Below, piece by piece: positions 36,291 to 63,560 of a stretch of 64,000 nt of DNA; within the stretch, counting starts at the first letter, position 1, and each line of letters starts with the position of its first letter. The notes under the pieces were generated by a model that was not told where the DNA came from, searched no databases, and was given only the letters and a program-made list of their open reading frames with translations. Made by a program: the position numbers and the translations under genes. This stretch comes from Hydractinia symbiolongicarpus. Taxonomy: Eukaryota; Cnidaria; Hydrozoa; Anthoathecata; Hydractiniidae. Location: assembly GCF_029227915.1 (NCBI RefSeq), contig NC_079888.1:19572001-19636000 (forward strand). The letters run 5' to 3'.

Positions 36291-36426
36291 TATCAATAAT
36301 TCTAGCCTCCTATAGTTTTGTGTTGTTAAACATTCCGATAAGTTTTGTTGTTTAAAAATGAAAATCCGCTCATCACCAAAAAACACCCTGTCGCAACTTA
36401 GATAAATAGCGAAAAAGTATTATTAC

Positions 36427-37090: not shown

Positions 37091-40000
37091 CTAAATCAGA
37101 AAAGAAAAAAAATAGTGTCGTAATATGACCATTTATTTGCTTAAAGATGTTCACATAGGTGTTATCTTTAATTTGCAATATCTATTAGAACACTTGTATT
37201 ATCGTCACACAAGGGCAAGGTTATTGGGCGCATTCGCACTGTAAATAAAATTGCCACATCACCTTTCACAAACGTTGCATTGAATAATAAAGGCGCCTCT
37301 AATAGAGCCAATAGTGAGTACGGTGAGCTACACAGGATTGGAAAAGGAACCGGCAGCATTTATATCTGCTTTGGCGTTTGATGATGATGAAAAAAAGAGA
37401 ATTAATGATTAATAATTTAGTACTAGTCGATGGCCCGTGAAAAACCTTACGGGTTCGCCCGAATTTTTATACAGCTTTGCGTGCGTCTCGCTACTTGCGG
37501 TATTATTTTGCGTGACAGACAGACGCATACGGGTATTATAATATAGACTAGCCGGGAAACGCGGCTTAGAAACGCCGGTGTAAGCCACAAGGCAATATGT
37601 AACCCGGCATTGAACGCCCTGAGGAGCGGTTAATAAGAACCGCACACTGTGCGACATGGTGAGGTGAAGCGCTTTAGTACATTCATGCAGTATATATGTC
37701 GTTAATCAGGCGAAGCGCATACACCATTGTAGTATTGTGACTTTTTTAAAAAAAAATAATATACCCGCAACAAAAGCTGAAATAAAAACAGAATTAACAA
37801 ACCGTTGTTACTTCAACATAGCAGAAACAATCGGTCAATATTACTTTTTTTGTGGAATAAGTTTTTGTGAAAGTTAATAAATTCATCGTAACATGGGGCT
37901 GATAAACAATGTTGAACATTCATACAGGTGTGATTCCCGAGAAAGTATAAATATCAATTGTTACAAATGGACTGACCCCTTAATATATGTAAACCGCGTT
38001 GCAAATGCGCATAAAAATAACAGCCTTTTACAAAAAACAATCTGTTGTTAACACTGGGCTAACCGCTTAGTACAGTTAAACATAGTTGAACAGGTGAGTA
38101 AGCGTAATAGACTTTTCCAAAAAACTTCATTGTGAAAAACACAGGGAACAGGCTGTCGTTACCGACTCGTCCAGCTAAAACAATTGCTCAGCCATTTTAT
38201 TTGCAGAAAAATTTTCAGGAAAATAAAAAAAGATGTATATAGCTAGCTCCTATAGCTAGCTAGGTAATTGCATTTAGCATAAGAATTATTGCTTAAGAAT
38301 ATTGTTGTAGCATAACTGCATTTTTATACTCTCAGTTTTTGGCCAAAGATTGGAGCTAGCAAAATGGCTACAGCCTCAACATAAAAATAAATGTTGGGTA
38401 GGATAAAAAACCATACAAAAGAGTAATAAGTAGGGCTTTAGCTGGCTAGCTAAGTAGCGAAATCTTCGTTCCTAGCCAAAAATTCTAAAACTGGTACGTT
38501 TAAGATCTTTACATGGCTAAAAAACGTGAAGATTTATTCTTGTTTCTACAAACAATTTCAGAAATAATTAACTGTGATCAATAACTAACCTTTTCTCTTT
38601 TCATTGCTTTTAAAAAGCGCATCCTCCTATAAGTAAGAATTTCTTATTCATTATTTTGATACAGTTGACTCCCTCTAATTCAGATCTCCATAATTCGGAT
38701 ATTTCTATAATTCGAACCATTGCTCAGTCACCGTCACTTTTCCTTAAGGAACTCTTATAAAAAACTAACTTTCTCTAATTCGAACAATCCTTCAGTCCCT
38801 TCAGCACGATTCTCTCCCTAATTGGAATTTTAGAGTGTAAACAGGGCTTAAATTGTTTTTCAAACGTTAATTTTTTTTAAAATGTTGGTCTTTCTACATT
38901 TTTTCACTTCTTTATACAATCAAATATTCAAATAGAGTTTATTTTTTGTGTAAACTATGAACATAAAGATTGAATGAAACTGGAATAGTGTTTTTTTGAT
39001 TTTGAAATTAACGTAATTTCTCTTCGTAATTCGAATTTTCACTCTCTGAAGGTAAAAGTTCGAATTACAGAGAATTTCTATAATTCGAATCTCTCAATAA
39101 TTCGAACTAAAAATTTTCCCCGTGGAAATTCGTATTAGGTAGAGTCAACTGTAATTACAACTTTTCTGCGTGACGAATTACCAAAAAACAAAAACAGTTA
39201 GTCTTACCAGTTGATGCACTTTTGATTTCAATCTTATTCTGCACATGAAAAAAAAATATTTAGAACAAGAGAGGAAGAAGAATAACAACATATTTTTTTG
39301 ATGTTGCAAAAAGCTTTAGCAAAGAAGTGTTTGTTAACCGTCTGGATTATGCAAGCGGGCAATATCTGTTTTGAGGCATTGTAATTGACTTACCGCTCTT
39401 GCCGACAGCCTGGTTTATGCAGGCCCCTGGTCAAGAGTAGTGAAAGAAAAATTATAGGGATTTAGTGCATAGAGAATTCTGCTTTGGATGTATTTTTTTT
39501 TCTGCTTCTAATTTCTACAAGGACAGTAGTAAAGTACCGTAAAATGCCGAAATCAAGCGCAGCCAATTAGAAGCGCACCCATTGTTAAACGTACCAAATC
39601 CTTATCAAGATTTTATTCCCGTTTATAGGCGCACCCTCAAACAAGCGCATAATGCAGAATTTTCTGTAAAACAAAACAAAAATTTGATAATTAGGTCTTT
39701 TTTGAAGTGTGGAATATTAAACACTCCGACGGATCGAAAGATCAGAACTGATGACGATTCAGAATCCCCTGACACAGATGGTATGAGTACGAACAAAGTA
39801 ATTTTCGTTCTGATATTTCTTCTGACGATTCAACAACTGATGAAGATTAAGGAATATTATTACTATTATTTTACTATTATTTACCCAGGATAGCCTCTTC
39901 AGTTTCTATGGGAACTGTTATCACACTTTTATAGTCTCTGGCATGATTCGGTCGGGGTTTGAAAACAAGACCTTCCGCACTGGAGGCGAACCGCATTGTA

Positions 40001-42673: not shown

Positions 42674-43709
42674 CTGAAAAATAAGTAAAACAAAACAAAC
42701 TTAAAGAGAAATTCGTAGTTGTTGTCATAGTTATTAAAAAAAGACTGGTTCAGAAGATCGGCAAATTCCCAATGATACTCGCTCGATCTTTTAATGTACG
42801 TCACTTGACCCTGAAAGTGCACGATCATTCAAAAAGGCTAGTATTGGTGGAATTGAAGATGTGTTTTGGCATCATTAGATAATTTTGAGGATGACTGATA
42901 ATCTTATGGAAGTTTCAGACGAAGATAATTACTTAAATGAATTTTGTTTTGTTTTTTTCTGAATATTTATACAGGATGAAACCGCCAGTTTATATGTACA
43001 TTATATATAAAGAACTGCTATCATTGACCGTCCTGTTGAAAATGAAGTATTTTAGTTTAGTTTATGCAGTCAGGGAATACTATGTTGATATGACCTCATT
43101 ATTATTTCTTTAAGAAGAGGCGAACTGTGCACGGCACGGCTGCTGAACAAAAGTTCATGATGCCAATGTTGATTTTGAAGACCAGACCGACTGGCTTGGT
43201 CTGCTGATCCACAATAAATTAATCTGCATGTTACAGCCATGATAAAAAAAAAGTCATAAAGCAAAGACTAAGAATGTTTTGATATTAAAAATATTTGTAG
43301 AGTTCGTATTCGTAGAGATATAATTTGATGTGTTACGCATACAAGAAATGTTGCAAAACGACACCGCAATAGACCCAAAATACAAAACACTTTTGTTTAC
43401 ATCTTGCTGTGCTGAATTATAGATAATACAGTATTTTTACTGAATCGCCAAACGGGTGGCTTAATTTAAAAAACAATGAAATATATTTCTCTCTTCATTG
43501 TAATAGCCACGGGTCAATGCACACGAAATAATTAAACAAGAAAGCTGTGGATCAAAACAGCAAAAATGTTGAAGAACATTTGACGGAAATATTTTTATTA
43601 TTTAAAACTGACCATACTGAAACAAAATTTGATTAAAGAAGGTTAGGAAATTAAAGATTCGTTAATAAAGATGAAGCCTCCATATTGTGCGTTCAATTTG
43701 TTGTTGAAT
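42674..43709. other. Region upstream of the first gene 1 exon found
   Basis: It should contain the missing 5' exon(s), but no segment with good borders and phase-0 exit could be supported. A 57-codon minus frame beginning MAVTCRLIYCGSADQASRSG (near 43,070-43,240) is open and is shared with C2, but without informative differences. Confidence 0.4.
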
Positions 43710-45196
43710 ATATTGCTGTTGCTATGTAGTTTATTTAAATTTTGGTCCAGAATAAGAAATGTTGCCCATTTTTCACTGGTCCACCATACACTAAGTTTGA
43801 AATGCAACGTCGATAGCCGAAGCTAGCTAACAAGTTTAAAGGCTGGTTTTTTTCAAAAGTTTTTAAGAAATAGAGGTATATAACTCTTTGTAACCAGAAG
43901 ATATAAAATAATTATTCTCCTTACTAAAAAACGTTTTTTTACATTTTTATAAAGAAAGATCTTGAGTTCCAGTTATACTTTCCCAAAACTTATTAGAAGA
44001 TATAAAACAAATATGGACAAATATAATATGTTAAAACTCAAAAAATCAAGACAATTAAAAATTGATTTTTAAAATGAATAAAGACCTCAAAAATTAATTA
44101 CAGAACTTTCTTGATCTTAAGCCACTTTTTCCCTGTTCCAAATTTCCTTTTTTGACATTTTTTGTGTTCTCACCTTTGACAACTCAGGTACAAATTTTGT
44201 ATAATATAGTTTGTCATACCAATATAACTGAGACACGAATATCATAAGCCAGTGTACATTAACATTTTTTTGTCGAATTAAAAATAAAAAAACACTCGAA
44301 GTTCAAACTTTTTTTTGGAGTAAAATGATCTTAAGAAAGTAATGTCAATGCATCCTGTATCTGAGAAGGAAAGAGAACCCGGATTTAAAGCACTAGAATT
44401 ACTTTCGTTTTTATTGTTTAGATAATAAATCAAAAGCTTGTTTTCTCGACCGATTTCTCGTCCTAAAAAATTTTATTAACAATTTGTTAACAATTGATAT
44501 CAAATGGGTTATTTAAAATGTTGAAGACAACCTTTTGTACAGAAAATTTTCACCATTTTTAGTTAATAGTCGTAAATTTACCGATTTTGTAAATACTCTA
44601 TAAAAATATCAGTATTATTAATTTAGCACATGCGTTGGATCGCCCAATATTCAATTAATTTTTAAAAAGACAAAAGCAGATGATAATAGAACGAGAAAAA
44701 ATTGTCCCCTTTCCCTTCACCTTCTCTCCCTTCTTAGAAATAGTGACAGCTAAGGCAAGTAAACATTATTTAACATGATCAGAACAGAATACATTAATTA
44801 CTTTTACTGAAACAATCTTCAATATGTTAATACAACAAAAACAATAATTAAAGCATTCCTCTGTATGTGTGTTACCATCTGTCATAAACGGTAATTAGGT
44901 ATAATGTAAATGCAATGCATGATCTTTGCCATGTCATGAAGCTCTGACGGAGATAGGTAAAACAGCAATCAGTTTGAACAGGACAGCAGGATTAAAGTGA
45001 TAAGCAACTCAGTGTTGCGTAAACTAGACATGTTAGACATCTGCTTGCAAAAACCTGCATAGTGGATGTGCATAAATTTCTTACTACAAACTCTTGAACA
45101 AAGCAAAACATTTGTACTACAATATAGAACTTTATGTAAGGATGCGTACTTTCTCAAACATAAAAACAAATTGGAAGGTATTAGTAAAACATCCAA
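43710..45196. other. Unique spacer between genes 2 and 1
   Basis: AT-rich sequence with no partner elsewhere in the window. The 75-codon minus frame at 44,969-45,196 has no recognisable domain. I see no exon. Confidence 0.5.
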
Positions 45197-46365: not shown

Positions 46366-49300
46366 CTATTGCCTAAGTAAGAAAAAGGAAATATCAGTTT
46401 AAAGCAATTTTTTCTGCCTGGAGCATGTAATTGACATTCAAGTAACTTTGAACTGGCGTGCATAGGGACTGTTATTTGTAGCTATTACGTCATCGTACGC
46501 TTTTAATCAAATTAATAGCCCTCGTAAAGTGAATTTTATTACAACATGCAAAGTAATGGGCAAGGTTGCAAGAAATAGTAATAAAAGAAATATGTATGAC
46601 TGGCAAATTTTTCTGGAATTATTCGCACAAGAGAGATATTTTCGTGTCTTCCTTTCGTCTATAAATGCGAAGTCCACTTCAATCACAAAGCAACACACAT
46701 TCTATGCGGTCACTCCTCAAAGAGACAAAAATCTCCACTGTTCTACCGATTTGCTAAGATAAATCATAAGCCCCCCTGGTTTCTAAAAATTCGTGGTAAG
46801 ATTAAAGGAATATCGGTAACCCTTTTGAACACACAAAATACGGCTATTATAATAGAGATGACATTGTTCAGTTAAAAGACAATAGATTTTTAGCTACGAT
46901 TACATATTCTAACTGAAACAATTGCATCGTGATGAACACGGTTTTAATTTTTTATATGATCGTGAAACTCACGATGCATTTTCTTTTTTCTTTCTTAATT
47001 TATTAAACGTCGGAGAAATAACTAAATAAAATAAATAAATACATATTTACAAATATATAGGAAACTAATCAAATCCGACAAAAATTTGTTTATAGTTTTT
47101 GAAAATGTATAAAAATTAAATAGACCGAGTGACCGAGTGACTGAAATTTCCAAATTTAAGTCCAATGAGCGAAGATATTTTTCCCCAAAATTCTTAGTAT
47201 TAGTAAGTTCAATGTTTTAAGATTATTTACATATTGACTTCGTACTGGCCTGTTTGTTTCGCTGCGTTGAAAGATGTCCAACATAAATGGCGGATTTAAA
47301 TTATTAAGAGATTTAAAAATCTCTAGCTATACAGAGATTTCTTATTCGCATAATTTTCATGTAGTTACTTTTGTTCTTGCTAGAAATGTACTTTTCTTTT
47401 CCCTCTGAATATTCGCTATCTACAAAATTTAGGGCTCGCTTATGGAGTTTTTCGACCCTAGAAAGTGATTTTGAGGATGAGAAATTCCAAATAAGTGGAC
47501 GGTAGTTAAAGTTTGAATACACAAAATTTTTTGCTAAGAACCTCTTAGCTTTGAAAGGAAGTATGTTTTTAAATATATACAAAGCATTTAGTTGCGCAGA
47601 TGCTTTCTTGCAAACTTCATTTAAGCGCTGATCAAATCTAAGGTTATTGTCAATTTTAACTCCTAACAATTTGACTGTGTCTTCCGAATATATGTTTTTA
47701 TGCATCGTGACACGATAACTCGCGTCTTTCACGATAGCATTATTTCACATTTAAGCACAAAGATAGTGGATCGTGGTTGTCGCGCATGATACACGATGTT
47801 AGGCTTCCTGAGAGCTGTACTGTATGTGGCTTCAAATATTACCGTTCTCAATAATCCAAATGGATGTAAATCAAAATTTTAAATAAATATGTTTGCAAAA
47901 AGAACAGGAGCCAGTAAACTGATGAAAAAAGAGAAAGAATTGATCCATTTTACATCCAATTATACCACATTTTAAAGTTTGGGAAAGGTTTTTAACCATA
48001 CTTGAAGGCCCGAATTGCAGCACCTAGCAAGTAATGTAGAGCTAGGTAAAGGTTGGTCGACAAAGCTAAAAAATTGTTTGTATTCTGCTCATAAATACTG
48101 ACTAGCTTGTGCATGTTGGAGCAATAGGATGTCCTACTTTCTATTCCATACATGTTTTTCCATAAAATTACCGCTAAAAATTTCTATGACATGTGAATGG
48201 ATTAATTAGTGAAAAACCCGCATCAAATATGGTTAAACAGAGGAAAATAGAGGAAAATATATATTAAGAAAATTTACCTTCCATCCATTTCCTTCTTTTT
48301 GCTAGAGGGAAAAGACCGATATATTGACAAAATATAAACGCTCTGTCTCTTTACATTAAAAAAAACACGCATAGATATCTAAAGTAGATGTCTGCTTAAA
48401 GAAGCGGCTTGGTTATTCTAAGTATGCTAAATTTATTGTATACATACCTGACTCCTCTAGGTCTCTGATCATGGTATCTATAAAAAAATGCAATAGCAGG
48501 AATGAACAAGAAAGCTACTAATGGATTAATATACAACAAATGATTTAATTGGTAACAACAGCAGTATAGAAGTATCTGTAGAAAAATTTACTTACTAAAG
48601 CTTAAACGTTTTGGTGTTTCTGAGAAAAATAAGAAGGAAAAATAATTGATTAATAATGTATGCAAACTCAGTATAAATATATACCTGAAATACGTAACCA
48701 CTAATACTAAATTTGCTCCGGAATCCAACTACTTTGACAGTTTTTTAATAACATTTTGATATGCTGCTAGCAAAAATTTTTATACACTTTTTTAAAGATA
48801 TCTATTTTACACCTGCCTGTCGAAATTTTAGGTACCATACTTCCAGATACTTTCCTAGAATTTTAATGAAATTACTTCGGTTGACATCTCAATGTACGCT
48901 GATATAAGAGAAAAGTATTGCAACTAATGTGTTGTTTCACAAATTGAGAAAGCTGATACGTTTAAGAAGGCTGAAAAAAAGTCACAAAGAAGGTAGGGGC
49001 AGAATTCGCCGCATCCTATTTTACAAGATTAAAAAAGCTTAGTATATTTAGGCTAATGAAACTGTGCAATGATTGTCTATGCATATAAAAAATTAATAAC
49101 TTAGTGATCATTAAACTGATGATAAAAATAAAATAAAGACGAAGTAATGAAGCAAACCTTCTTTTCTTCTTTTATCAGCTAAAAGCAAATGAACGATGTA
49201 GCGTAAAGTAGTTGATTAGACTATTTTCAATTAAGACAAAAATAGCTCTCCGCCATTTCAAACGTGTCAAGGTAATGAAAGTTTACCTGATTCTTGGAGC

Positions 49301-52300
49301 TGCTTTAGCATGTCTTCGTTACCTATACAATAAACACGACAGAAACTAAAATTTCAAACTCTTTACGACAGAATTTCGCGGCACTAGGCTGCACCAAGGG
49401 AATCATCAAATTTGTTACACATTCATCTTAACTAGTTTACTTACTGTTTAACTACTTTCGCAGGCAAGAAGCTGTGTGGAGTTCAAGGTTTCGTGAAATT
49501 TTGCGAAAACAGATCGAGAATTGCTACGAAATTCTAATATTATTTAATTACTAATCTCTCTAACATCTGTTTTAAAGTTACATGATATAGTGTCACTTCT
49601 CTTAAAAAAATGAAATTAGATATTTTGTGACCCAATATTATATAGAGTCCATCTTTTGAAAATTTAAAGGTACTGTCTTTATACACTTTTTCATTAGATG
49701 CTAGCGTTCCCGTAGTTAATTTACAATGTTTTGCATGTCCAAAGCTTTAATTAACATTATTATTTCTGTATCTTCATTGAATAACCCTTTTGTTTTTCTT
49801 CGTCACTGGTAGCTGAAGCTTAAGAAGGATATCAAGCAATAACTTTCGTTACATCTACAAACTGCTTATGAAGTAAAAATAAAACCGTCTACCAAGCCAC
49901 CCCCGGGTAAAAAATAGTACTTTAACAGGTATATGCGTAAATATCTGTTCGAACTATGAAAAGTTTTAGGAATTTGTTGTTGTTATAACAAACATTTGTT
50001 TATTTCTTTCAGTGGTACATTCTAGAACAAAAATAAAGGCAAAAGACATGCAAAAGCGTTAGAGAAAACACGGATGTAGAAAAGCAACAACAAAAAGTAA
50101 TTGTTAAGTATGGTGTTGTAGAAAAATAGTAAAGAAGAGCTTAAATAATCATGCTTTTAAATACACTAATTAAAAACGATATTTTGGGGTAAATTGATCG
50201 CTACTTCTATTATACTATTTCCGTCATTTGCAAATTATGAGATAGTAAAGATCTCCTAATCTGAAATTTTTACAGCCTAATATCTGCAGAACAATTAATG
50301 CTCTTTGTAAAATCTAAACACATGACTCAATCAACAATTTAGTTATTTTTGTGATACTTATTACTGATAATACATCTAGCTTTATAGATTTTGGATATAA
50401 ATAGAATACGCAATACTGTAAAACTTAAAATTAAATAGTATAATTCTATAAAGAATAAATTTGACTTACTCCTTAAACGAGGGATTTTGTCAACTAAACA
50501 TAAAGCAATTTAATTATTAAAACTTATGGATGTTTCAATGCAAATATCACAAATTGTATACATCCTAACAATGTTAGCACTTTGTCTAACGTCAAAACTT
50601 ATCCGGCGAATTGTATTTTGTGCAATCTACTTTTTAGCAACAGTTTTTTTTAAAATTTTAAAAAAATTAAGACAGGGATTACAATAAATGAAAAAGCATA
50701 ATTTTTGGCTTAATTTAAAGTTTACATATACCATCATCTATTATTGTACTTACAACTTTGTCTGTCCTTGACTTCAGCTAAAAGGCAAAAGAGATTGAAA
50801 GTTGCGTACGAAAATCTAATTGTGCTTAACCCTACTCAAATTGGTGTCTGAATGAAATTGGTGAAATTGGTGTTTGACAAATAATAGGCACAAGTGTTAA
50901 ATGTCCTTAAAGAATTAAAATGGCAGTAAAATTTTTGGTTTTGGTCCCGTGATAATTTTATGACGTTAGCAAAATTTGAAAAATTGCTGTTCTTTTATGT
51001 TTTTGAGTATGAAATATGCAAATATGCTCCAAATGATATCAAAATACACAACTTTTTTTTCTTCTGAGCCAATGGGGTGCCAAACCGATAAAAAGAGATT
51101 TACCGCAACATATGGGCGTTAATTACGCCCACATGGAGCAAAATAATATGCGAGGGCGTAATAAAGGCGTAGGCACCCCACAATGAAATATGAATCTAAT
51201 ATATTGATCACATATCACAAAATGCGCTTAATAATTCAAAAAAATATTTCATGCTTAATTTTTGCATAAGGGACGTTAGAAATAGGGGAGTACCTGATGT
51301 TATGTTAAGGGCGCAAATTTATTTTTTTCTTGTTAAATCAACTTTATAAAAATAAAAACTCAGCTAGTAAAAATTTCAAGCAAAATTTACAAGTAAAGAA
51401 CAGAATAGGCTGAAGAGTCAATTACTAAACTCTTCAACAAAGTTATCATGGCATTTTTATTTCCCTTTGTCTTATTTTCTTTCTTTAAAGAGTGACCACA
51501 ACATCCCTTTAGTCAAGAAATGTAGATTGACCAAACAATGTCTCTTTGGTTCTTTTCCCTGAAACCATACTTCGAATTTAAACATGCACTTTAAAAAGCG
51601 AGGACATTTTGTTAAACCACCCTCCACATAAAAACTGAGAAAAAATTCCCCCGCATAATTATACCAAAATCCAGCGTGTTTGGAAGGGCGAATTGTGACA
51701 TGTTCCTTTTTCACCAAAAAAGGAATTGCTAAACGCTACGTCAGAACGAACATAGATGTTTTTAATTATAATGCTAAAGTCACTGGATTGAAGGTATAAT
51801 TTTGACTCAAAAAACTTTAAAACTAGTAGGTAACTTTGGACCTTAGATAAAAATGGAACTAATTTTCCAAAGCTGGGTAAACGAACCATTTTCTTTCAGG
51901 CATACATTAGCAAATCATCAAATGTTGGTACATGAAAGTTTTTTCTTTTTAGATATTAAAAATAGGTGCGTAATGCGATCCTCAAAATAGTGCTTAACTG
52001 TAATATTAGATCACAGGAGATATGGTAAAACCAGTTTTATGTCGGTTAACGATGTTCGAGTGCTACAATTATCACAAAACAAAATGTTGTTATAACTTAT
52101 CTCTGTACGAAATGACGTCAAATATTACGTGCAATCTTATCTTAATTTTATCAATAATTCTAGCCTCCTATAGTTTTGTGTTGTTAAACATTCCGATAGG
52201 TTTTGTTGTTTAAAAATGAAAATCCGCTCATCACCAAAAAACACCCTGTCGCAACTTAGATAAATAGCGAAAAAGTATTATTACCGGATAGCTGGGGCGA

Positions 52301-55300
52301 CCTTTCAACTGAAAAAGAAAAATTAAAAAAATGATTAATAATCCTGGACAATGTAGGCGGGGAAGAGGACAACGAAATGCAATATCAACAACAGCGATAG
52401 TAAATAATTCTAAAAGGAATTTTCCACACCTTTGATATCTTTCTAGCAAAACAATTATGAATCAGAATAAAATTATCAGAAACCAGACGCTATGTAACAC
52501 CTAAATCAACCGCTGATTAAATTAAGTTAAAGCCCGAGTGTGGAGAAATATACTGCAAAAAATTAATACATCTTTATAAACATTAATAACTTACACCGGA
52601 TAACCGAAAAGTCTAAAAAAAAATCAAAATTAAAATCAAAATAAAATGCTACAAAAATCTTAGAGCGTACAAAATAGTAAATAAATGAAACTTACCTACA
52701 CTTGGAAGATCGTCTAAAACAATAATTGTAATCGTTACTAACAAGAAAATATTTAACATTGCGGAAAAGAAACGCTAACTTTATGCTTGGAGGTGAACGG
52801 TAATGTCACATACCATCTGCGACAGGCTCTAAAGAAAGGGATGTATAATTTAGATCAAAATTTGAGTGATAACATCAATCTCTTAAATGCGCACAAACAA
52901 TACCATACCTTCATTTTTCGGCACTAAAAAGTAAAACAAAAGTAATTTAGCTAAACGTAATCGTATTTCGTATTTATTAAGCATAACTTATAATGTAGTA
53001 CCTTCTATTGATATTCGATCTAAATCAGAAAAGAAAAAAAAAATAGTGTCGTAATATGACCACTTATTTGCTTAAAGATGTTGACATAAGTGTTATCTTT
53101 AATTTGCAATATCTATTGGAACACTTGTTTTATCGTCACACAAGGGCAAGGTTATTGGGCGCATTCGCACTGTAAATAAAATTGCCACATCACCTTTCAC
53201 AAACGTTGCATTGAATAATAAAGGCGCCTCTAATAGAGCCAATAGCGAGTACGGTGACCTACACAGGATTGGAAAAGGAACCGGCAGCATTTATATTGCT
53301 GGTTTGGCGTTTGATGATGATGAAAAAAAGAGAATTAATGATTAATAATTTAGTACTAGTCGATGGCCCGTGAAAAACCTCACGGGTTCGCCCGAATTTT
53401 TATACAGCTTTGCGTGCGTCTCGCTACTTGCGGTATTATTTTGCGTGACAGACAGACGCATACGGGTATTATAATATAGACTAGCCGGGAAACGCGGCGT
53501 CGAAACGCCGGTGTAAGCCACAAGGCAATATGTAACCCGGCATTGAACGCCCTGAGGAGCGGTTAATAAGAATCGCACACTGTGCGACATGGTGAGGCGA
53601 AGCGCTTTAGCTTAAATAATCATGCTTTTAAATACACTAATTAAAAACGATGTTTTCGGGGTAAATTGATCGCTACTTCTATTTATACTATTTCCATCAC
53701 TTGCAAATTATGAGATATTAAAGCTCTCCTAAAGTGAAATTGTTACAGCCTAATATCTGCAGAACAATTAATGCTCTTTGTGAAATCTAAAAAAATGACT
53801 CAAGCGACAACTTAGTTATTTTTGTGATACTTATTACTGATAATACATCTAGCTTTATAGATTTTGGATATAAATAGAATACGCAATACTGTAAAATTTA
53901 ACTTGAAATTAAATAGTATAATTCCATAAAGAATAAATTTCACTTACTCCTTAAACGAGGGATTTTGTCTAGTAAACATAAAGCAATTTAATTATTAAAA
54001 CTTATGGATGTTTCAATGCAAGTATCACAAATTGTATACATCCTAACAATGTTACCACTTTGTCTAACGTCCAAACTTATCCGGCGAATTGTATTTTGTG
54101 CAATCTACTTTTTAGCAACAGTTTTAACAAATTTTAGAACAATTAAGACAGGGATTAGAATAAATAAAAAAGCATAATTTCTGGCTTAATTTAAAGTTTA
54201 CATATACCATCATCTATTATTGTACTTACAACTTTGTCTGTCCTTGACTTCAGCTAAAAGGCAAAAGAGATTGAAAGTTGCGTACGAAAATCTAATTATG
54301 CTTAACCCTACTCAAATTGGTGTCTGAATGACCCGGTCTAAGAGTGGGAGGATGCCATACCCCTATATTTTCTGATCTACTGGCTTATTTTGACAAATAA
54401 TAGGCACAAATGTTAACTGTCAATAAAGAATTAAAATGGCGGTAAAATTTTTGGTTTTGGTCCCGTGATAAATTTATGACGTCAGCAAAATTTGAAAAAT
54501 TGCTGTTTTTTTATGTTTTTGAGTATGAAATATGCAAATATGCTCAAAATGATATCAAATTGCACAATTTTTTTTTCTTCTGAGCCAATGGGGTGCCAAA
54601 CCGATAAAAAGAGTTTTACTGCAACATATGGGCGTTAATTACGCCCACATGGAGCAAAATAATATGCGAGGCCGTAATAAAGGCGTAAGCACCCCACAAT
54701 GAAATATGAATCTAATATACTGATCACATATCACAAATTGCGCTTAATAATTCAAAAAAATATTTCATGCTTAATTTTTGCATAAGGGACGTTAGAAATA
54801 GGGGAGTACCTGGTGTTATGTTAAGGGCGCAAATTTATTTTTTTCTTGTTAAATCAACTTTATAAAAATAAAAACTCAGCTAGTAAAAATTTCAAGCAAA
54901 AGTTACAAGTAAAGAACAGAATAGGCTGAAGAGTCAATTACTAAACTCTTCGACAAAGTTATCATGGCATTTTTATTTCCCTTTGTCTTATTTTCTTTCT
55001 TTAAAGAGTGACCACAACATCTCTTTAGTCAAGAAATGTAGATTGACCAAACAATGTCTATTTGGTTCTTTTCCCTGAAACCATACTTCGAATTTAAACA
55101 TGCACTTTAAAAAGCGAGGGCATTTTGTTAAACCACCCTCAACAAAAAAACTGAAAAAAAAATTCCCCTGCATAATTATACCAAAATCCAGCGTGTTTGG
55201 AAGGGCGAATTGTGACACGTTCCTTTTTCACCAAAAAAGGAATTGCTAAACGCTACGTCAGAACGAACATAGATGTTTTTAATTATAATACTAAAGTCAC

Positions 55301-58300
55301 TGGATTGCAGGTATAATTTTGACTCCAAAAACTTTAAAACTAGTAGGTAACTTTGGACCTTCGATAAAAATGGAACTAATTTTCCAAAGCTGGGTACACG
55401 AACCCTTTTCTTTCAGGTATACATTAGCAAATCATCAAATGTTGGTACATGAAAGTTTTTTCTTTTTAGATATTAAAAATAGGTGCGTAATCTGATCCTC
55501 AAAATAGTGCTTAACTGTAATATTAGATCACAGGAGATATGGTAAAACCAGTTTTATGTCGCTTAACGATGTTCGAGTGCTACAATTATCACAAAACAAA
55601 ATGTTGTTATAACTTATCTCTGTACGAAATGACGTCAAATATTACGTGCAATCTTATCTTAATTTTATCAATAATTCTAGCCTCCTATAGTTTTGTGTTG
55701 TTAAACATTCCGATAAGTTTTGTTGTTTAAAAATGAAAATCCGCTCATCACCAAAAAACACCCTGTCGCAACTTAGATAAATAGCGAAAAAGTATTATTA
55801 CCGGATAGTTGAGGCGACTTTTCAACTGAAAAAGAAAAATTAAAAAATGATTAATAATCCTGGACAATGTAGGCGGGGAAGAGGACAACGAAATGCAATA
55901 TCAACAACAGCGATAGTAAATAATTCTAAAAGGAATTTTCCACACCTTTGATATCTTTCTAGCAAAACAATTATGAATCAAAATAAAATTATCAGAAACC
56001 AGACACTATGTAACGCCTAAATCAACTGCTGATTAAATTAAGTTAAAGCCCGAGTGTGGAGAAATATACTGCAAAAATTGAATACATCTTTATAAACATT
56101 AATAACTTACACTGGATGAACGAAAAGTCTAAAAAAAAAATCAAAATTAAAATCAAAATTAAATGCTACAAAAATCCTAGAGCGTACAAAATAGTAAATA
56201 AATGAAACTTACCTACACTTGGAAGGTCGTCTAAAACAATAATTGTAATCGTTACTAATAAGAAAATATTTAACATTGCGGAAAAGAAACGCTAACTTTA
56301 TGCTTGGAGGTGAACGGTAATGTCACATACCATCTGCGACAGGCTCTAAAGGAAGGGATGTATAATTTAAGTCAAAATTTGAGTGATAACATTAATTTCT
56401 TAAATGCGCACAAACAATACCATACCTTCATTTCTCGGCACTAAAAAGTAAAACAAAAGTAATTTAGCTAAACGTAATCGTATTTCGTATTTATTAAGTA
56501 TAACTTATAATGTAGTACCTTCTATTGATATTCGATCTAAATCAGAAAAGAAAAAAAAAATAGTGTCGTAATATGACCATTTATTTGCTCACATAGCCTA
56601 TATATATGATAACACCTATATGTGAGCACCTATATGATAACACCTATATGTTCACATAGGTGTTATCTTTAATTTGCAATATCTATTAGAACACTTGTAT
56701 TATCGTCACACAAGGGCAAGGTTATTGGGCGCATTCGCACTGTAAATAAAATTGCCACATCACCTTTCACAAACGTTGCATTGAATAATAAAGGCGCCTC
56801 TAATAGAGCCAATAGCGAGTACGGTGAGCTACACAGGATTGGAAAAGGAACCGGCAGCATTTATATCTGCTTTGGCGTTTGATGATGATGAAAAAAAGAG
56901 AATTAATGATTAATAATTTAGTACTAGTCGATGGCCCGTGAAAAACCTCACGGGTTCGCCCGAATTTTTATACAGCTTTGCGTGCGTCTCGCTACTTGCG
57001 GTATAATTTTGCCTGACAGACAGACGCATACGGGTATTATAATATAGACTAGCCGGGAAACCCGGCGTCGAAACGCCGGGGTAAGCCACAAGTCAATATG
57101 TAACCCGGCATTAAACGCCCTGAGGAGCGGTTAGTACAGTTAAACATAGTTGAACAGGTGAGTAAGCGTAATAGACTTTTCCAAAAAACTGTGAAAAACA
57201 CAGGGAACAGGCTGTCGTTACCGACTCGTCCAGCTAAAACAATTGCTCAGCCATTTTATTTGCAGAAAAATTTTCAGGAAAATAATAAAAGATGTATATA
57301 GCTAGCTCCTATAGCTAGCTAGGTAATTGAATTTAGCATAAGAATTATTGCTTAAGAATATTGTTGTAGCATAACTGCATTTTTATACTCTCAGTTTTTG
57401 GCCAAAGATTGGAGCTAGCAAAATGGCTACAGCCTCAACATAAAAATAAATGTTGGGTAGGATAAAAAACCATACAAAAGAGTAATAAGTAAGGCTTTAG
57501 CTGGCTAGCTAAGTAGCGAAATCTTCGTTCCTAGCCAAAAATTCTAAAACTGGTACGTTTAAGATCTTTACGTGGCTAAAAAACGTGATAATATATTTAT
57601 CTTAACATTAATAACAAACAAAAAACAAATATAACAAAAATATAAAGCTTTCAGAAGATAAAAGCCTACAAAACTGACCACACATGACCACTTTCAAAAT
57701 GGCCTTCGTCAAAATGGCCTTCGTCAAAATGGCCTTCGTCAAAATGGCCTTCGTCAAAATGGCCTTCGTATAGCCGCGAAAATATTGGATTGTTTTTTTA
57801 AGCGAAAGTCTTGCTTTGTTTTTTAAAGAATCAGGCGTCGTGATTGGTGTACTACGTGGGAGCGGTCAAAAAAAAGTCGGTAAAAATATATCGTTTTTGC
57901 TATCGGTGCGTATTTTACAAAATTTCGTGTTCCTGTAACGGAGGCGGCTTTCGCGGACACACAGACAGACAGACGACGGCTATTATTAAAGAGATGAATG
58001 AAGATTTATTCTTGTTTCTACAAACAATTTCAGAAATAATTAACTGTGATCAATAACTAACCTTTTCTTATTTCATTGCTTTTAAAAAGCGCATCCTCCT
58101 ATAAGTAAGAATTTCTTATTCATTATTTTGATACAGTTGACTCCCTCTAATTCAGATCTCCATAATTCAAATATTTCTATAATTCGAACCATTGCTCAGT
58201 CACCGTCACTTTTCCTTAAGGAACTCTTATAAAAAACTTTCTACAATTCGAATTTCTCTAAGTCGAAACTTTCTCTAATTCGAACAATCCTTCAGTCCCT

Positions 58301-61300
58301 TCAGCACGATTCTCTCCCTAATTGGAATTTTAGAGTGTAAACAGGGCTTTGACAAATTCGATTTTTTTTCTAAAATTCAAAAATTGTTTTTCAAACGTTA
58401 TTTTTCTTTAAAATGTTGGTCTTTCTACATTTTTTCACTTCTTTATACAATCAAATATTCAAATAGAGTTTATTTTTTGTGTAAACTATGAACATAAAGA
58501 TTGAATGAAACTGGAATAGTGTTTTTTTGATTTTGAAATTAACGTAATTTCTCTTTGTAATTCGAATTTTCACTCTCTGAAGGAAAAGTTCGAATTACAG
58601 AGACTTTCTATAATTCGAATCTCTCAATAATTCGAACTAAAAATTTTTCCCGTGGAAATTCGTATTAGGTAGAGTCAACTGTAATTACAACTTTTCTGCG
58701 TGACGAATTACCAAAAAACAAAAACAGTTAGTCTTACCAGTCGATGCACTTTTGATTTCAATCTTATTCTGCACATGAAAAAAAAATATTTAGAACAAGA
58801 GAGGAAGAAGAATAACAACATATTTTTTTGATGTTGCAAAAAGCTTTAGCAAAGAAGTGTTTGTTAACCGTCTGGATTATGCAAGCGGGCAATATCTGTT
58901 TTGAGGCATTGTAATTGACTTACCGATCTTGCCGACAGTCTGGTTTATGCAGGCCCCTGGTCAAGAGTAGTGAAAGAAAAATTATAGGGATTTAGTGCAT
59001 AGAGAATTCTGCTTTGGATGTATTTTTTTTTTCTGCTTCTAATTTCTACAAGGACAGTAGTAAAGTACCGTAAAATGCCGAAATCAAGCGCAGCCAATTA
59101 GAAGCGCACCCATTGTTAAACGTACCAAATCCTTACCAAGATTTTATTCCCGTTTATAAGCGCACCCTCAAACAAGCGCATATAAGGAAAAGAGATAGAG
59201 CATACAATGATCGTTTCGGTTAAAATGCAGGATTTTTCTGTAAAACAAAACAAAGATTTGATAATTAGGTCTTTTTTGAAGTGTGGAATATTAAACACTC
59301 CGACGGATCGAAAGATCAGAACTGATGACGATTCAGAATCCCCTGACACAGATGGTATGAGTACGAACAAAGTAATTTTCGTTCTGATATTTCTTCTGAC
59401 GATTCAACAACTGATGAAGATTAAGGAATATTATTACTATTATTTTACTATTATTTACCCAGGATAGCCTCTTCAGTTTCTATGGGAACTGTTATCAATG
59501 AGGGTCCTGGGAAGGGGGTTCTAGTGCATTTAAAACTCCCATTTGAGCTAAAGAAGGCGTGCAAGCACAACAACCGCTTAACTAGACAACCGCCTAAGAT
59601 ATCAATCCTTTTCTCATACTGAACGTTAAGCACAAAGGATCGATTCACACTTTTATAGTCTCTGGCATGACTCGGTCGGGGTTTGAAAACAAGACCTTCC
59701 GCACTGGAGGCGAACGGCATTGTACAAAAAGATACACAAAAAAGAATATGCAAAAAAAATTATTTACTTTTTCTTTCTTTTTTTTCCTTGCACTTTTTTT
59801 ATACTAGTTTATAAGCGGACCCTCAGATAAGCGCATCAAAATCTTGATTTCAGCATTTCATGGTATTATTACAGTATAAAATTATTCTTTATTTTTATCT
59901 AAGCTGGACGGTTAACAAATGCAGTAATGACTGATTAGCCAGTGCTGTACCAAAAATATCGCCCCCAGTCATTGCACTGACCCCGCAAGCTCGCTCGGCA
60001 CTTACACTACTCTAGCCGATAAGAAAATCGTTAAAGAAATACTGTTGCAGATGACATATCGCAGTCCAGCCGATAAGAAAGGTGTAGCTAAGTAAAATTT
60101 ATGCTCCAACTGCAGTTTCATGTTAAAATTATTATTTAAGAATAATGTTTTTCAACTTGTTTCACTATCGCCATTTTTGAGAACATAGGCCAATTCGAAA
60201 ACACACAAAATATCATTTGTGGAAATCGATTCTAATTATTGTTTTTACTTACATCTCTAAGTTCATAGTATTGCGCTAAAAAAAGAATCAAAAGAGAAAT
60301 AAGTCATAAAAGATTGACCAGCTTTTTGTTTTATAGCTTACTCGAAAATAAGTTGTGCTCATATAAAAAATCTTAAAAGCTATCTAGGAATCTATTTATT
60401 ATAAAAAAATCTTTTTCGATTCTTGATTATTCGTTTCGAAAGCTGCGCTAATTATGCGAAATTATCTCCAAAACATGTATTTGCTTTTGAGCTTAATTAT
60501 AGAAAGTAAATATAAAAATTTGTGTAAAATGTTCAAAACACCAAAGTGAACGGCTGAAAACATTCTCTAATCAAAATTGACATCATGCATAATTAGTAAA
60601 ATTAGCCAATTCTTAAGAACCAATCAAGAAAGCTGAAAGTATACAAATTTTTAGACAACTTTTGAAGCTTTTCCATATGAAATTAACTTTTCGCATCAAA
60701 TCAACAAATAGTAATTAATCGAAGAAGATTTTATCAACTACATCTTTTTGTTGATCTGATTAATTTGTTTTAATTCATCAATATATTGAGATGAAATATT
60801 ATAATAAGATGTGAATAATGATTACTTACTATATTTTCATTTTCATTTTTTAAATCCGTACTAAGTTAAAAGAAAAAACACAACATGTCAATCTTCAAGT
60901 TGTTAGCAATGTATAAAGTGAAGAACGCAACGTTTGGTAACCTAAATTTAGTCAGCTTGGAAACGACATCAAAATTCAGAAAAATTAACACTTTTAAATT
61001 TGATATTCCCTTACATCCCCACTTACTACTATTCCCTTACATCCCCCCTTACTACGATTAGATTTCTCCCACTCTCCGCAATGTTTCTTAATTTTTACCA
61101 CTTATTTCAATTTATTATCGTCCCCTTACATTCCCTCTAACTACTTTTAAATTTTAAGCAGGGTAATATTTTTTGAACAGAAGGCTTTTTCGAACGTGAT
61201 TATAATGATCATTATAGCGATGTCACTTTATAGCCAATGAGGTTTGCTGAAATATTTGTAGCTCCTCTTTTTATGCTAATACCAATAGGAAGGAAAGAGA

Positions 61301-62499
61301 TACCTATGTTTTATTTCATGGATTACCGTGCACATTAACAAAACAAACGTAGCTAATTATCACTTTGTGTTTAGCTACCGCAAAATTATTACCAATGGTG
61401 AAAGTAGCTGTGCGTTAATGCGAATACAAACTTCACTTACATTTCTTTCCGGAGTCGATCCACCTGAAAAAAAAGTTGAAAATTTTTTAAAAAAATTACA
61501 TTACTAATTCTATCCTCAATTCAAATCAATCGAACATACCAACGTTAATTGTTTAGGCTGCTGAGGCCGACGTTTCTCGCTAGCAGCTTGTTGCCGATTA
61601 CGTCGGCGCTCAGCAACCTCTTCAAATATTTTACGTTGCCTCCTAGAAATGAAAATAAATTATAAAAGAACTGGTTGCAACAAATTTATGCTTTCATGAA
61701 TATTCGACGTGAACGTATCTTACCAAATTTTTTGCACATTCTTTTCAGCCCTTGTGCCTTTTTTGAGGAATATTGCATTCCTCGGGCTGTAAAAAGGTAA
61801 TATATTTTACTAGTAGTGTCCAAGCTACTACAAAGTTACTCCTTTAATCTATAAATGCACTATCGAACGAGGCAACAATACAAAACTTTTAGTCTTTGTA
61901 TTTGCGTTCATTTTTTGCAAACTAATTAATTTTAGGAATCCATGTTTATAATAAAACGGTGCCAAATTGCAGTGGGGCAATAACTGCCAAGAACGTTACT
62001 ACTCTTACCTTGGAAGGAGTTTGAGACTTTCATAGAATGATATATGTATTGTTTGTTTGAAGTTTCAACATGAATATTTTTAAATTCTCGCTATATTCTT
62101 AGCACGGTTGGGATTGAAAAATGTAAGAATGCGAACTGTTGCAAGAATCACCACTAAGATACTAAGGGAGCCATATTTAATTAACAAAGAGACAACTATA
62201 TTTTGGTAAGAAAAGTAATTACCTCCATTGATTTAGCAAGTATTATAAAACTATGGAAAAAGATGCCGTTGGATTTTAATTATCACCAACTCAATTAGGA
62301 CTATAAACAGCAACTATGACATAACTTACGCAGACTGCGGGCTCTAAAAGAAAAGAAGCAATTGTTATGAGAGAAAATAACAATAACAAGAATATAATTT
62401 TGTTGGTTTACTTACTGTCCTTCTCAAGAATTTCACTCCGGCAACACCCTTGAAAATGGTGGACATTGATTCGACGGTCGAATTTGTCTCGGCATACAA
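46366..62499 (-). CDS. Gene 2: micro-exon gene (multi-exon model, 5' end unknown)
   Basis: Exons in transcript order: 62,416-62,499; 62,330-62,343; 61,724-61,786; 61,540-61,642; 61,441-61,463; 60,830-60,860; 58,738-58,768; 57,222-57,233; 56,519-56,536; 56,426-56,440; 56,331-56,345; 56,213-56,230; 56,111-56,128; 55,802-55,825; 54,230-54,253; 53,948-53,968; 53,002-53,019; 52,909-52,923; 52,814-52,828; 52,696-52,713; 52,595-52,612; 52,285-52,308; 50,754-50,777; 50,470-50,493; 49,287-49,322; 49,158-49,178; 48,596-48,619; 48,448-48,477; 48,278-48,301; 48,002-48,023; 46,366-46,372. All borders are AG/GT. The spliced frame stays open for 277 codons and then TAG. The N-part is basic then coiled-coil-like; the C-part is strings of 4-11 residues. 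No family is recognised. The start codon and earlier exons were not found. The last two exons are the weakest. Confidence 0.68.
46985..47732 (-). mobile_element. 5'-truncated LINE, RT thumb region
   Basis: The minus frame 47,732-47,313 reads VKLLGVKIDNNLRFDQRLN, ASAQLNALYIFKNILPFKAK, FVYSNFNYRPLIWNFSSSKS and LSRVEKLHKRALNF, the well-known region after the RT core in Jockey/CR1-like LINEs. After a frame break it continues with NLNPPFMLDIFQRSETNRPV. The 3' tail ends in AT-rich, AAAG-containing sequence near 46,985. The catalytic motif is absent and the copy is dead. Confidence 0.8.
48002..49322 (-). CDS. Gene 2 unique 3' microexons
   Basis: 49,287-49,322 NEDMLKQLQES; 49,158-49,178 DKRRKE; 48,596-48,619 TPKRLSF; 48,448-48,477 TMIRDLEES; 48,278-48,301 KRRKWME; 48,002-48,023 AAIRAF. 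The first five are multiples of three in the common phase. NEDMLKQLQES and TMIRDLEES look related, hinting at old exon duplication. The DKRRKE donor (GTTTGC) is weak. The 22-nt AAIRAF exon shifts the phase so that the final exon gives KQ-stop. Confidence 0.62.
50138..52148. repeat. Segmental duplication D, copy 1
   Basis: Starts AGCTTAAATAATCATGC and is repeated at 53,609-55,665. D and A together form a tandem unit of about 3.5 kb (50,138-53,608, then 53,609-57,131). It holds two microexons; the 51.0-52.1 kb part shows only short conserved frames that I cannot call genes. Confidence 0.92.
50470..50777 (-). CDS. Gene 2 microexon pair D1
   Basis: 50,754-50,777 EVKDRQS (acceptor TTGCCTTTTAG, donor GTAAGT) and 50,470-50,493 DKIPRLR (acceptor TTTATGTTTAG, donor GTAAGT). 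Both are 24 nt, 2-in/1-out. Other frames of DKIPRLR contain a stop. Confidence 0.74.
52285..53019 (-). CDS. Gene 2 microexon cassette A2 (six exons)
   Basis: 53,002-53,019 RISIE; 52,909-52,923 PKNE; 52,814-52,828 PVAD; 52,696-52,713 DLPSV; 52,595-52,612 FSVIR; 52,285-52,308 ERSPQLS. Same lengths and phases as A3. CAA/CAG in the last exon is silent; FSFIQ to FSVIR is replaced at two residues. Confidence 0.75.
53343..53508. mobile_element. Hairpin-headed repeat at the end of A2
   Basis: Same element as 37,410-37,575, with the hairpin fully paired (CCCGTG/CACGGG). Confidence 0.45.
53609..55665. repeat. Segmental duplication D, copy 2
   Basis: Second copy of D. It differs by scattered substitutions and by a replaced stretch near 54,330-54,390 (GACCCGGTCTAAGAGTGG, absent from D1). 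Confidence 0.92.
53948..54253 (-). CDS. Gene 2 microexon pair D2
   Basis: 54,230-54,253 EVKDRQS (24 nt) and 53,948-53,968 KIPRLR (21 nt). The second has its acceptor AG three bases further in than the D1 copy, so one residue is lost and the frame is kept. Confidence 0.72.
55802..56536 (-). CDS. Gene 2 microexon cassette A3 (six exons)
   Basis: 56,519-56,536 RISIE; 56,426-56,440 PRNE; 56,331-56,345 PVAD; 56,213-56,230 DLPSV; 56,111-56,128 FSFIQ; 55,802-55,825 EKSPQLS. Sizes are 18, 15, 15, 18, 18 and 24 nt, all multiples of three. Each enters with 2 nt of a split codon and leaves 1 nt. Differences from cassettes A1 and A2 include silent GAT/GAC and CCC/CCT and conservative K/R changes. Confidence 0.75.
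56587..56667. repeat. Nested palindromic insertion in A3
   Basis: GATAACACCTAT occurs directly twice (56,608 and 56,636) and once inverted (56,656-56,667), and GCTCACAT at 56,587 pairs with ATGTGAGC at 56,620. A1 and A2 have only the last arm. The pattern fits fold-back copying of the local sequence. Confidence 0.85.
56926..57091. mobile_element. Hairpin-headed repeat at the end of A3
   Basis: Third copy of the hairpin-headed element. Just after it the A segment is cut and joined to C2. Confidence 0.45.
57589..58000. mobile_element. 412-bp insertion private to C2
   Basis: C1 reads AACGTGA/AGATTTATTC without interruption; C2 has 412 bp between these. It ends in a GACAGACAGAC-rich stretch like the hairpin-headed repeat in A, which suggests a related non-autonomous element. 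It contains a 15-bp minisatellite. Flanking duplication is at most 3 bp (TGA). Confidence 0.55.
57694..57768 (+). repeat. Perfect 15-bp minisatellite, five units
   Basis: TCAAAATGGCCTTCG is repeated five times without error, inside the C2-specific insertion. Confidence 0.95.
58134..58681. mobile_element. pogo/Tigger-like MITE in C2
   Basis: Fuller copy (548 bp) of the element at 38,662-39,151, with the same CAGTTGACTC ends and TA flanks and about 58 bp more internal AATTCGAA-type sequence. Confidence 0.75.
58738..58768 (-). CDS. Gene 2 exon, 31 nt (NKIEIKSAST)
   Basis: Acceptor TTTTTTTCATGTGCAG, donor GTAAGAC. It enters in phase 0 and leaves 1 nt, which switches the transcript into the phase used by all downstream microexons. 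The single difference from gene 1 (39,208-39,238) is TCG/TCA, silent in this frame and replacing in the rival frame. Confidence 0.72.
59225..59424 (+). pseudogene. pogo/Tigger-type transposase C-terminal fragment, C2
   Basis: Same fragment as at 39,655 (QNKDLIIRSFLKCGI), with the same one-base shift before the acidic tail. The frameshift therefore predates the C duplication. Confidence 0.6.
59456..59725 (-). mobile_element. tRNA-derived SINE, C2
   Basis: Same SINE family as in the palindrome arms (shared GGCATGACTCGGTCGGGG and AGGATAGCCTCTTCAGTTTC), inserted inside the pogo-like element. It joins the palindrome and the gene region only through the shared repeat family. Confidence 0.68.
60006..60011 (-). 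other. Possible 6-nt microexon, C2
   Basis: AGTAGT between a CTAG acceptor and the consensus donor GTAAGTG; it would insert two residues without changing frame. The acceptor lacks a strong pyrimidine tract. The same arrangement lies at 40,286-40,291. Confidence 0.25.
60253..60275 (-). other. Phase-breaking 23-nt cassette exon, C2
   Basis: Excellent borders (acceptor TTCTTTTTTTAG, donor GTAAGTAAAAAC) and identical to 40,532-40,554. Its inclusion shifts the frame and brings a stop in the RISIE microexon, so I left it out of the gene model. It could be a regulated poison exon. Confidence 0.5.
61204..61307. other. About 104-bp block in C2 absent from C1
   Basis: C1 joins GTGATTAT/GTTTTATTTC; C2 has 104 bp between, starting with the palindrome AATGATCATT and ending ACCTAT. 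TAT flanks both sides. Insertion in C2 or deletion in C1 cannot be decided. Confidence 0.55.
61540..61642 (-). CDS. Gene 2 exon, 103 nt, basic region
   Basis: Encodes RQRKIFEEVAERRRNRQQ followed by AASEKRRPQQPKQLTL in phase with the exons on both sides; donor GTATGT. The basic stretch followed by a coiled-coil-like segment (VDRLRKEITDLKNENENI across 61,441-61,463 and 60,830-60,860) recalls a nucleic-acid-binding basic region plus helix, but bZIP heptads are not convincing. The only difference from gene 1 is the last codon, CTG/TTG, both leucine. Confidence 0.8.
61724..61786 (-). CDS. Gene 2 exon, 63 nt (PRNAIFLKKGTRAEKNVQKI)
   Basis: Acceptor CCTTTTTACAG, donor GTAAGA. It enters with 1 nt completing the alanine codon from the 14-nt exon SPQS(A) at 62,330-62,343 and leaves 2 nt that make W with the next exon. 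The other two frames are stopped or do not fit the neighbouring phases. It is lysine/arginine-rich. Confidence 0.78.
62416..62499 (-). CDS. Gene 2 exon, 84 nt (LYAETNST...FLRRT)
   Basis: The acceptor TTATTTTTCAG and donor GTAAGT enclose exactly 28 codons in phase 0: LYAETNSTVESMST, then IFKGVAGVKFLRRT. Against the gene 1 copy there are 10 nucleotide differences; eight codons change silently and one is I/V. The flanking introns are almost identical. This is the strongest single sign of protein coding in the window. Confidence 0.85.
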
Positions 62500-63560
62500 C
62501 TGAAAAATAAGTAAAACAAAACAAACTTAAAGAGAAATTCGTAGTTGCTGTCATAGTTATTAAAAAAAGACTGGTTCAGAAGATCGGCAAATTCCCAATG
62601 ATACTCGCTCGATCTTTTAATGTACGTCACTTGACCCTGATAGTGCACGATCATTCAAAAAGGCTAGTATTGGTGGAAGTGAAGATGTGTTTTGGCATCA
62701 TTAGATAATTTTGAGGATGACTGATAATCTTATGGAAGTTTCAGACGAAGATAATTACTTAAATGAATTTTCGTACGAACTATGTGAATTTGTTTTGTTT
62801 TGTTTTTTTCTGAATATTTATACAGGATGAAACCGCCAGTTTATATGTACATTATATATAAAGAACTGCTATCATTGACCGTCCTGTTGAAAATGTAGTC
62901 TTTTAGTTTAGTTTATGCAGTCAGGGAATAGTATGTTGATATGACCTCATTATTATTTCTTAAAGAAGAGGCGAACTGCGCACGGCACGGCTGCTGAACA
63001 AAAGTTCATGATGCCAATGTTGATTTTGAAGACCAGACCGACTGGCTTGGTCTGCTGATCCATAATAAATTAATCTGCATGTTACAGCCATGATAACAAA
63101 AAAGTCATAAAACAAAGACTAAGAATGTTTTGATATTGAAAATATTCGTACAGTTCGTATTCGTAGAGATATAATTTGATGTGTTACGCATACAAGAAAT
63201 GTTGCAAAACGACAACGCAATAGACCCAAAATACAAAACACTTTTGTTTACATCTTGCTGTGCTGAATTATAGATAATACAGTATTTTTACTGAATCGCC
63301 AAACGGGTGGCTTAATTTAAAAAACAATGAAATATATTTCTCTCTTCATTGTAATAGCCACGGGTCAATGCACACGAAATAATTAAACAAGAAAGCTGTG
63401 GATCAAAATAGCAAAAATGTTGAAGAACATGTGACGGAAATATTTTTATTATTTAAAACTGACCATACTGAAACAAAATTTGATTAAAGAAGGTTAGGAA
63501 ATTAAAGATTCGTTAATAAAGATGAAGCCTCCATATTGTGCGTTCAATTTGTTGTTGAAT

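Follow-up and report, generated by a model that had tools for sequence, protein, structure and literature searches.

On the minus strand of the window, the whole 64,000-nt stretch of Hydractinia symbiolongicarpus DNA analysed here, lies a chain of 30 exons that read together as 284 codons (853 nt), and all 30 keep AG/GT borders and the frame. In this chain 21 of the 30 exons are symmetric and no longer than 36 nt, making up about half of the 853 nt by length. The first-pass annotation had proposed an unrecognised gene of the micro-exon type; a gene structure of that type is supported, although it is not a lone array, being preceded by a leucine-zipper-like front and represented by paralogs elsewhere. 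Besides the main copy, referred to as A, the window holds a second one:

36291..43719, minus strand: copy B, a truncated duplicate with E1-E7, E9, E10 and five microexons of the first set

Copy B (36.3-43.7 kb) duplicates the 55.7-63.6 kb part of A, from which it differs at 0.7-2.1% of the aligned non-exon sites, with some larger gaps. Its PRNE microexon is deleted, and it contains nothing beyond EKSPQLS.

The rest of the window is rich in repeats. An imperfect inverted repeat of about 34 kb (140-34157) has arms at 0.14-10.7 and 23.6-34.2 kb; its core is richer in G+C (0.43) and includes tandem repeats of about 365, 1726 and 2059 bp. In each arm there is one piece of what we take to be a Penelope-like element (949-1889 and 32341-33358), and over 84% of its length the ORF at 32344-32958 shares 88% identity with a protein of H. 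symbiolongicarpus. Between the last array exon and a possible last exon lies a fragment, 47313-47744, presumably of LINE reverse-transcriptase type.

The microexon array

The array consists of 22 minus-strand segments between 57233 and 48278, each preceded by AG and followed by GT, 12-36 nt long and a multiple of three. All 22 are open in the phase in which two nucleotides of a codon enter and one leaves (2 in, 1 out), whereas 13 are open in either of the other two, and the earlier description of the 57.2-48.3 kb segments as sharing size class and phase thus stands. The segments fall into the following blocks:

50142..57136: 3.5-kb tandem duplication, halves at 50.1-53.6 and 53.6-57.1 kb, carrying both microexon sets
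53948..56536, minus strand: first tandem set of eight microexons, all 2 in, 1 out, with AG/GT borders: 56536-56519 (RISIE), 56440-56426 (PRNE), 56345-56331 (PVAD), 56230-56213 (DLPSV), 56128-56111 (FSFIQ), 55825-55802 (EKSPQLS), 54253-54230 (EVKDRQS) and 53968-53948 (KIPRLR)
50470..53019, minus strand: second tandem set (53019-53002 to 50493-50470), repeating the eight microexons of the first
48278..49322, minus strand: five further microexons with splice borders and the common phase: 49322-49287 (NEDMLKQLQES), 49178-49158 (DKRRKE), 48619-48596 (TPKRLSF), 48477-48448 (TMIRDLEES) and 48301-48278 (KRRKWME)

Because the 3.5-kb tandem duplication doubles eight exons, which supply 16 of the 22 segments, there are 14 distinct array segments, not 22, and the count of about 30 exons given in the first-pass annotation is not supported as one of independent exons. 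Its statement that AG acceptors and GTAAG or GTATG donors occur nearly throughout is borne out for the AG/GT borders of the array, but such donors flank only 23 of its 31 segments overall; within the array they follow 14 of the 22, the other eight having different ones. Weak donors in the first set belong to RISIE (gtacta) and EKSPQLS (gtaata). The two KIPRLR exons differ in length by exactly 3 nt through the use of a different acceptor, and the phase is kept. The 12-nt segment at 57233-57222 (minus strand) is doubtful; it lies inside a repeat (57126-57998), and the stretch containing it also matches at 12 and 64 kb of contig C15.

In a strict splice-site scan of 57.3-48.2 kb the longest single-phase chain has 17 members, 16 of them segments already listed in the first pass and one a 12-nt candidate at 50847; with the first tandem copy removed, the chain is 10. 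In 100 dinucleotide shuffles the mean is 2.5 and the maximum 7. The controls were 25 places (21 loci and four parts of the window), read on both strands to give 50 stretches; their mean is 2.4, and non-satellite controls do not exceed 5. The only controls above 5, with chains of 22 and 13, are both arrays of a 373-bp satellite (L018, C2:10000001-10010000, and L010, C14:19665501-19675500), which mimics microexon arrays in such scans because its unit holds a splice-like segment of 27-33 nt. The single-phase array thus exceeds both the shuffles and the non-satellite controls, which confirms the core observation. That splice-like sites in this AT-rich, repeat-rich DNA merely fell into such a chain by chance is extremely improbable: it is true that the original segments were picked by eye and that two of them fail, but a chain of this length is far outside both comparisons, and the codon-position signal of E1 and the exact loss of an intron in relic L004, described below, also speak against it.

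Any microexon can follow E10 or another microexon in frame, since E10 ends with one nucleotide out and the microexons are 2 in, 1 out. The claim that exons may be skipped without change of frame is accordingly sound as regards the shared phase, but a stop codon arises in 6 of the 231 in-order array joins; the other 225 are stop-free.

Front exons and the ends of the gene

Upstream of the array the corrected chain contains nine exons:

62416..62499, minus strand: E1, phase 0 to 0, LYAETNSTVESMSTIFKGVAGVKFLRRT
62330..62343, minus strand: E2, 14 nt, 0 in, 2 out (SPQS), with splice sites, identical in A and B
61724..61786, minus strand: E3, 63 nt, 1 in, 2 out
61540..61642, minus strand: E4, basic stretch RQRKIFEEVAERRRNRQQAASEKRRPQQPKQLTL, 1 in, 0 out
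61441..61463, minus strand: E5, 0 in, 2 out, VDRLRKE, start of the zipper
60830..60860, minus strand: E6, 1 in, 0 out, TDLKNENENI, identical in A, B and the copy on contig C10
60253..60275, minus strand: E7, 0 in, 2 out, RNTMNLE, with one synonymous change in C10
58738..58768, minus strand: E9, frame corrected to 1 in, 0 out, IRLKSKVHRL, in which the zipper goes on
58062..58098, minus strand: E10, 0 in, 1 out, EDALFKSNEIRK, overlooked in the first pass

The front thus reads as a basic segment followed by a leucine-zipper-like coiled coil of about 48 residues. The heptad register runs unbroken over E5, E6, E7, E9 and E10; 10 of its 14 a and d positions are hydrophobic, no other register has more than 8 of 14, and an Asn occupies one a position.

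E1 carries a coding signal. Among six of its eight copies (two were dropped, deletions having altered their first bases), 13 of 19 variable sites fall at third positions of frame 0, with 14 synonymous against 7 nonsynonymous changes and no stops; the other frames give 4:17 and 1:20, with stops. These counts support the view that frame 0 of E1 is coding and under coding selection. Between A and B, 10 of the 84 sites of E1 differ, nine of them synonymously in frame 0 by hand count, as compared with 30 of 1951 non-exon sites nearby. Expressed otherwise, 62416-62499 and its counterpart in copy B, 42590-42673, differ by 12% inside the exon and by 1.5% in the flanks, a pattern that looks like exon-limited gene conversion. 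By eye, A shares several E1 states with C10, and B with a relic on C15; the A-B synonymous excess is confined to E1, and its most likely source would be a diverged paralog acting as donor in gene conversion.

E2 is uncertain in the C13 and C16 copies, as the intron ahead of it is merely 34 nt there (by eye). E3 leans towards the model frame, with 4 synonymous to 5 nonsynonymous changes against 1:8 and 1:7 in the others (eight copies, of which C10 has a stop). The single difference between A and B in the 103 nt of E4 is synonymous; no codon signal was found in E4 among eight copies (3:9, another frame giving 5:8), and E4, being without a synonymous excess among them, is counted against the gene model. 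For E9, five copies show 2 synonymous to 6 other changes in the frame first assumed, and 5:3 one base later. E10 is open in copy B with one change, and its donor, gttagt, is weak; its phase is exactly the one needed to enter the array from E9. With two segments doubtful, the frame of E9 wrong and the exon at 58098-58062 missed, the exact chain of 277 codons put forward earlier does not survive. Its 16-nt entry to the array, 58939-58924 (minus strand), is probably no exon: its acceptor lies behind a nearer AG, and, judged by eye, no coding frame accounts for the way A, B, C10 and C16 differ in it. The first searches were run with this segment in the chain, where E10 now stands.

In a diverged copy of the region on C15, relic L004, E9 runs straight into E10, and precisely the predicted 639-nt intron is gone. 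The 12 best-scoring joins share one deletion length, that of the 639-nt intron; the predicted E9-E10 join is among four tied best (54/66), and the joined frame is open: IRLNSKVRQLEDTLLKSEVKKK. This loss probably passed through spliced RNA. In the same relic PVAD and DLPSV are joined nearly exactly, with two extra bases, and this was not counted as an intron loss.

For the corrected chain no start codon, signal peptide or agreed stop was found, and a scan of 62.5-72 kb for an upstream donor fitting E1 gave only three trivial candidates. The highest 19-residue Kyte-Doolittle mean is 0.753 in the 284 residues, which do not include the first exon. Two features near the ends are listed as candidates:

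62815..62822, minus strand: tentative TATA-like TATAAATA upstream of E1, in A and B
49443..49471, minus strand: candidate alternative last exon, conserved, ending in SCLRK stop (2 in) or LLACESS stop (phase 0), with a weak acceptor

Downstream of the TATA-like site an ORF, 62536-62654, starts at 62654 (MIVHYQGQVTYIKRSS..., beginning MIVHYQGQVTYIKRSSEYHWEF). Over the 77 nt compared it is open in A, B, C10, C13 and C16, and it is interrupted by a stop in L038 and, as judged by eye, also in L037. It could be the first exon; it is left out of the chain because it is out of frame with E1 unless an unseen intron intervenes.

At the other end, the candidates considered for the last exon were the acceptors at 47918 and 46372 and the stretch at 49471, none of which was decided upon. 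The terminal TAG reported in the first pass is not in frame, as the phase of the array, entering from the acceptor at 46372, reads on (GNRARLSTEV...). Up to 36 nt within 49440-49475 have hardly changed in C10, C16 and the compact copies L036-L038; in L036-L038 the stretch follows E4 at a distance of about 50 nt, and it is recognisable in the C15 relic L012. It contains stop codons in two phases as well as GTAAGT, a perfect donor-like sequence.

Such an end would suit an arrangement of two overlapping units, a basic-zipper gene that stops near E9/E10 or at the 49471 stretch and a separate microexon transcript with a first exon of its own. The copies on C10, C13 and C16 are without E10, and E9, with 0 out, could run into the 49471 stretch (LLACESS stop). 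Against this, E10 supplies just the phase that the array requires, and the E9-E10 junction is recorded in relic L004; we regard two units as quite unlikely and prefer a single gene running from the basic-zipper front into the array.

Copies, relics and the state of the gene

Searches of 480.9 Mb of genomic DNA on 76 contigs give a lower bound on the number of copies. At least three further copies of E1-E5 are present (C10:6.996, C13:24.652 and C16:0.221 Mb), along with at least four smaller E1-E5 pieces (C10:7.03, C13:24.60, and C15:0.056 and 2.786 Mb) and further short matches elsewhere to an intron stretch. The 49.4-48.2 kb part matches the same regions of C10, C13 and C16 and, in addition, C15:2.764 Mb. 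The C13 and C16 copies share 98.8% identity over 1080 nt and possibly represent two haplotypes.

The paralogs carry reordered and partly lost microexon sets. Next after E9 in both C10 and C16 come NEDMLKELQES and DKRRKE, whose sites and phase are intact. C10 keeps TMIKDLEES in phase and has an additional in-phase microexon of 27 nt, QSWTAERV; the acceptors of TPKRLSF, EVKDRQS and KIPRLR are lost in it, and its E3 has a stop. C16 contains DAKDRKR, a version of EVKDRQS with intact sites, which stands behind DKRRKE instead of ahead of NEDMLK; TPKRLSF and TMIKDLEES no longer have their acceptors in C16. None of C10, C16 and C13 (the last judged from 501 nt compared with C16) contains the E10 region, so that in these paralogs the array does not continue the frame of E9, and they are the less likely to be working genes. 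The C15 pieces and the compact C10 and C13 pieces are decayed.

Between copies the microexons differ more than the introns, although the numbers are small, and there is no sign of conservation of their sequence. The two tandem sets differ at 8 of 153 microexon sites (5.2%) and at 103 of 3259 sites in the remainder (3.16%), and four of the eight microexon changes alter a residue by hand count. The five microexons shared by A and B differ at 4 of 93 sites, against 0.7-2.1% in the rest of those stretches. Such an excess would fit relaxed or diversifying selection.

It would also be in keeping with a young pseudogene; A would then have ceased to be expressed, as would the relics on C10, C13 and C15, and would be the least damaged of several copies. 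That several relatives have decayed (C15, the compact C10 and C13 copies, and the main C10 copy with its E3 stop and lost acceptors), that no annotated protein was found within the length ranges searched, and that start and stop are unclear all point in this direction. Yet splice borders and frame are kept in every exon of the corrected chain of A, when the relics have lost several, and across E2-E7 copies A and B differ at one site in 257 nt, synonymously, as compared with 1.5-1.9% in the introns there. A pseudogene is on this evidence unlikely, and a gene that still functions remains our preferred reading.

Proposed working and comparison with known systems

We put at roughly 0.6 the probability that the locus holds an H. 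symbiolongicarpus gene with a basic and zipper-like front and a tail of symmetric microexons, varied by skipping and by block turnover. The 5' part (E1-E7, E9 and E10) would encode the basic segment and then the leucine-zipper-like coiled coil, and the 3' part, with its 14 distinct microexons (one doubtful) of 4-12 residues each, a charged and probably unstructured tail. The gene would be transcribed today with the whole array in use, and its product would be a dimerising, DNA-binding coiled-coil protein, possibly derived from bZIP proteins and nuclear. Exon skipping would vary the tail within the gene, and duplication, loss and rearrangement of microexon blocks would have varied it over evolution. 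How such arrays originate could then be traced through the gains, losses and rearrangements that separate recent copies, in an animal amenable to culture and editing in the laboratory.

The earlier statement that the gene matches no family agrees with the searches, within the protein length ranges covered, Pfam and solved structures. The protein database includes proteins of H. symbiolongicarpus; the whole chain found no match at E <= 1 among candidates of about 155-494 aa, and the front part none at E <= 10 among those of about 374-1190 aa, shorter proteins lying outside these ranges. Either the gene has no annotation, or its product falls outside these lengths, or it is not expressed. None of the Pfam families attains its cut-off, the sub-threshold ones being mostly coiled-coil-like (best DASH_Spc19, E 0.0071, and FAP206, 0.008), and no bZIP model appears among the Pfam matches listed at E <= 5 or 10. 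One search of solved structures gave no match, and the others gave weak matches of coiled-coil type (best E 0.019). Rfam and tRNA searches gave no result, and in Hydractinia-titled work microexons were not found among the matches listed, nor was Hydractinia named in any paper listed by a further literature search.

A basic stretch followed, at an unusual spacing, by heptads with an Asn at an a position may correspond to the arrangement of Jun/AP-1 bZIP proteins. Residues 64-121 align with Jun at E 0.88 to 1.5, or 0.44 to 1.2 with a shorter query, values that are not significant. Unlike in bZIP proteins, extra residues and prolines lie between the basic part and the zipper, the Pfam bZIP model is not matched, and other coiled coils give alignments at least as good (Spc110, E 0.019; HIP1, 0.14). 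The Jun alignment serves as a lead and no more. Small exons of a common phase, used variably in splicing, also occur in known muscle proteins, vertebrate titin (its PEVK region) and troponin T; here the likeness is in exon layout alone, with no relation implied.

Schistosomes and aphids are on record as having exposed or effector-type genes with arrays of tiny exons in one phase (PMC8293314, PMC9168663). In the schistosome micro-exon genes (MEGs), exons are described as symmetric, no longer than 36 bp and dispensable without a frame shift, and the genes as being duplicated in repeat-rich DNA (PMC8293314). The hydroid array likewise consists of symmetric exons of at most 36 nt and is duplicated. 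The same source reports MEGs with a signal peptide and as restricted to schistosomes (PMC8293314); the hydroid gene differs in its basic-zipper front and in the animal that carries it. In the part recovered, which does not include the first exon, no signal peptide was found, and general protein searches gave no sequence similarity within the lengths covered. The bicycle genes of aphids, described as a rapidly evolving family, have many micro-exons, nearly all starting from codon position 2 (PMC9168663), as do all 22 array segments here, the front exons having other phases. They are unlike the hydroid gene in belonging to a different phylum, and neither similarity to them nor a secretion signal was found; a CYC motif is absent, since there is no cysteine in the 284 residues, the first exon not being included.

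If the preferred reading is true, the MEG or bicycle layout, and even its phase, would exist in a hydroid behind a coiled-coil front, which would suggest that this architecture comes about repeatedly and without a bond to parasitism or secretion. A wider proposal, which we consider doubtful, is that of a nuclear, dimerising, bZIP-derived cnidarian protein whose tail is combinatorial, drawn from a bank of microexons shuffled between paralogs, and which arose independently of the systems of parasites and plant-feeding insects. Judged by sequence, within the protein lengths searched, the hydroid gene is a member of neither the MEGs nor the bicycle genes, but it has the exon layout that characterises them.
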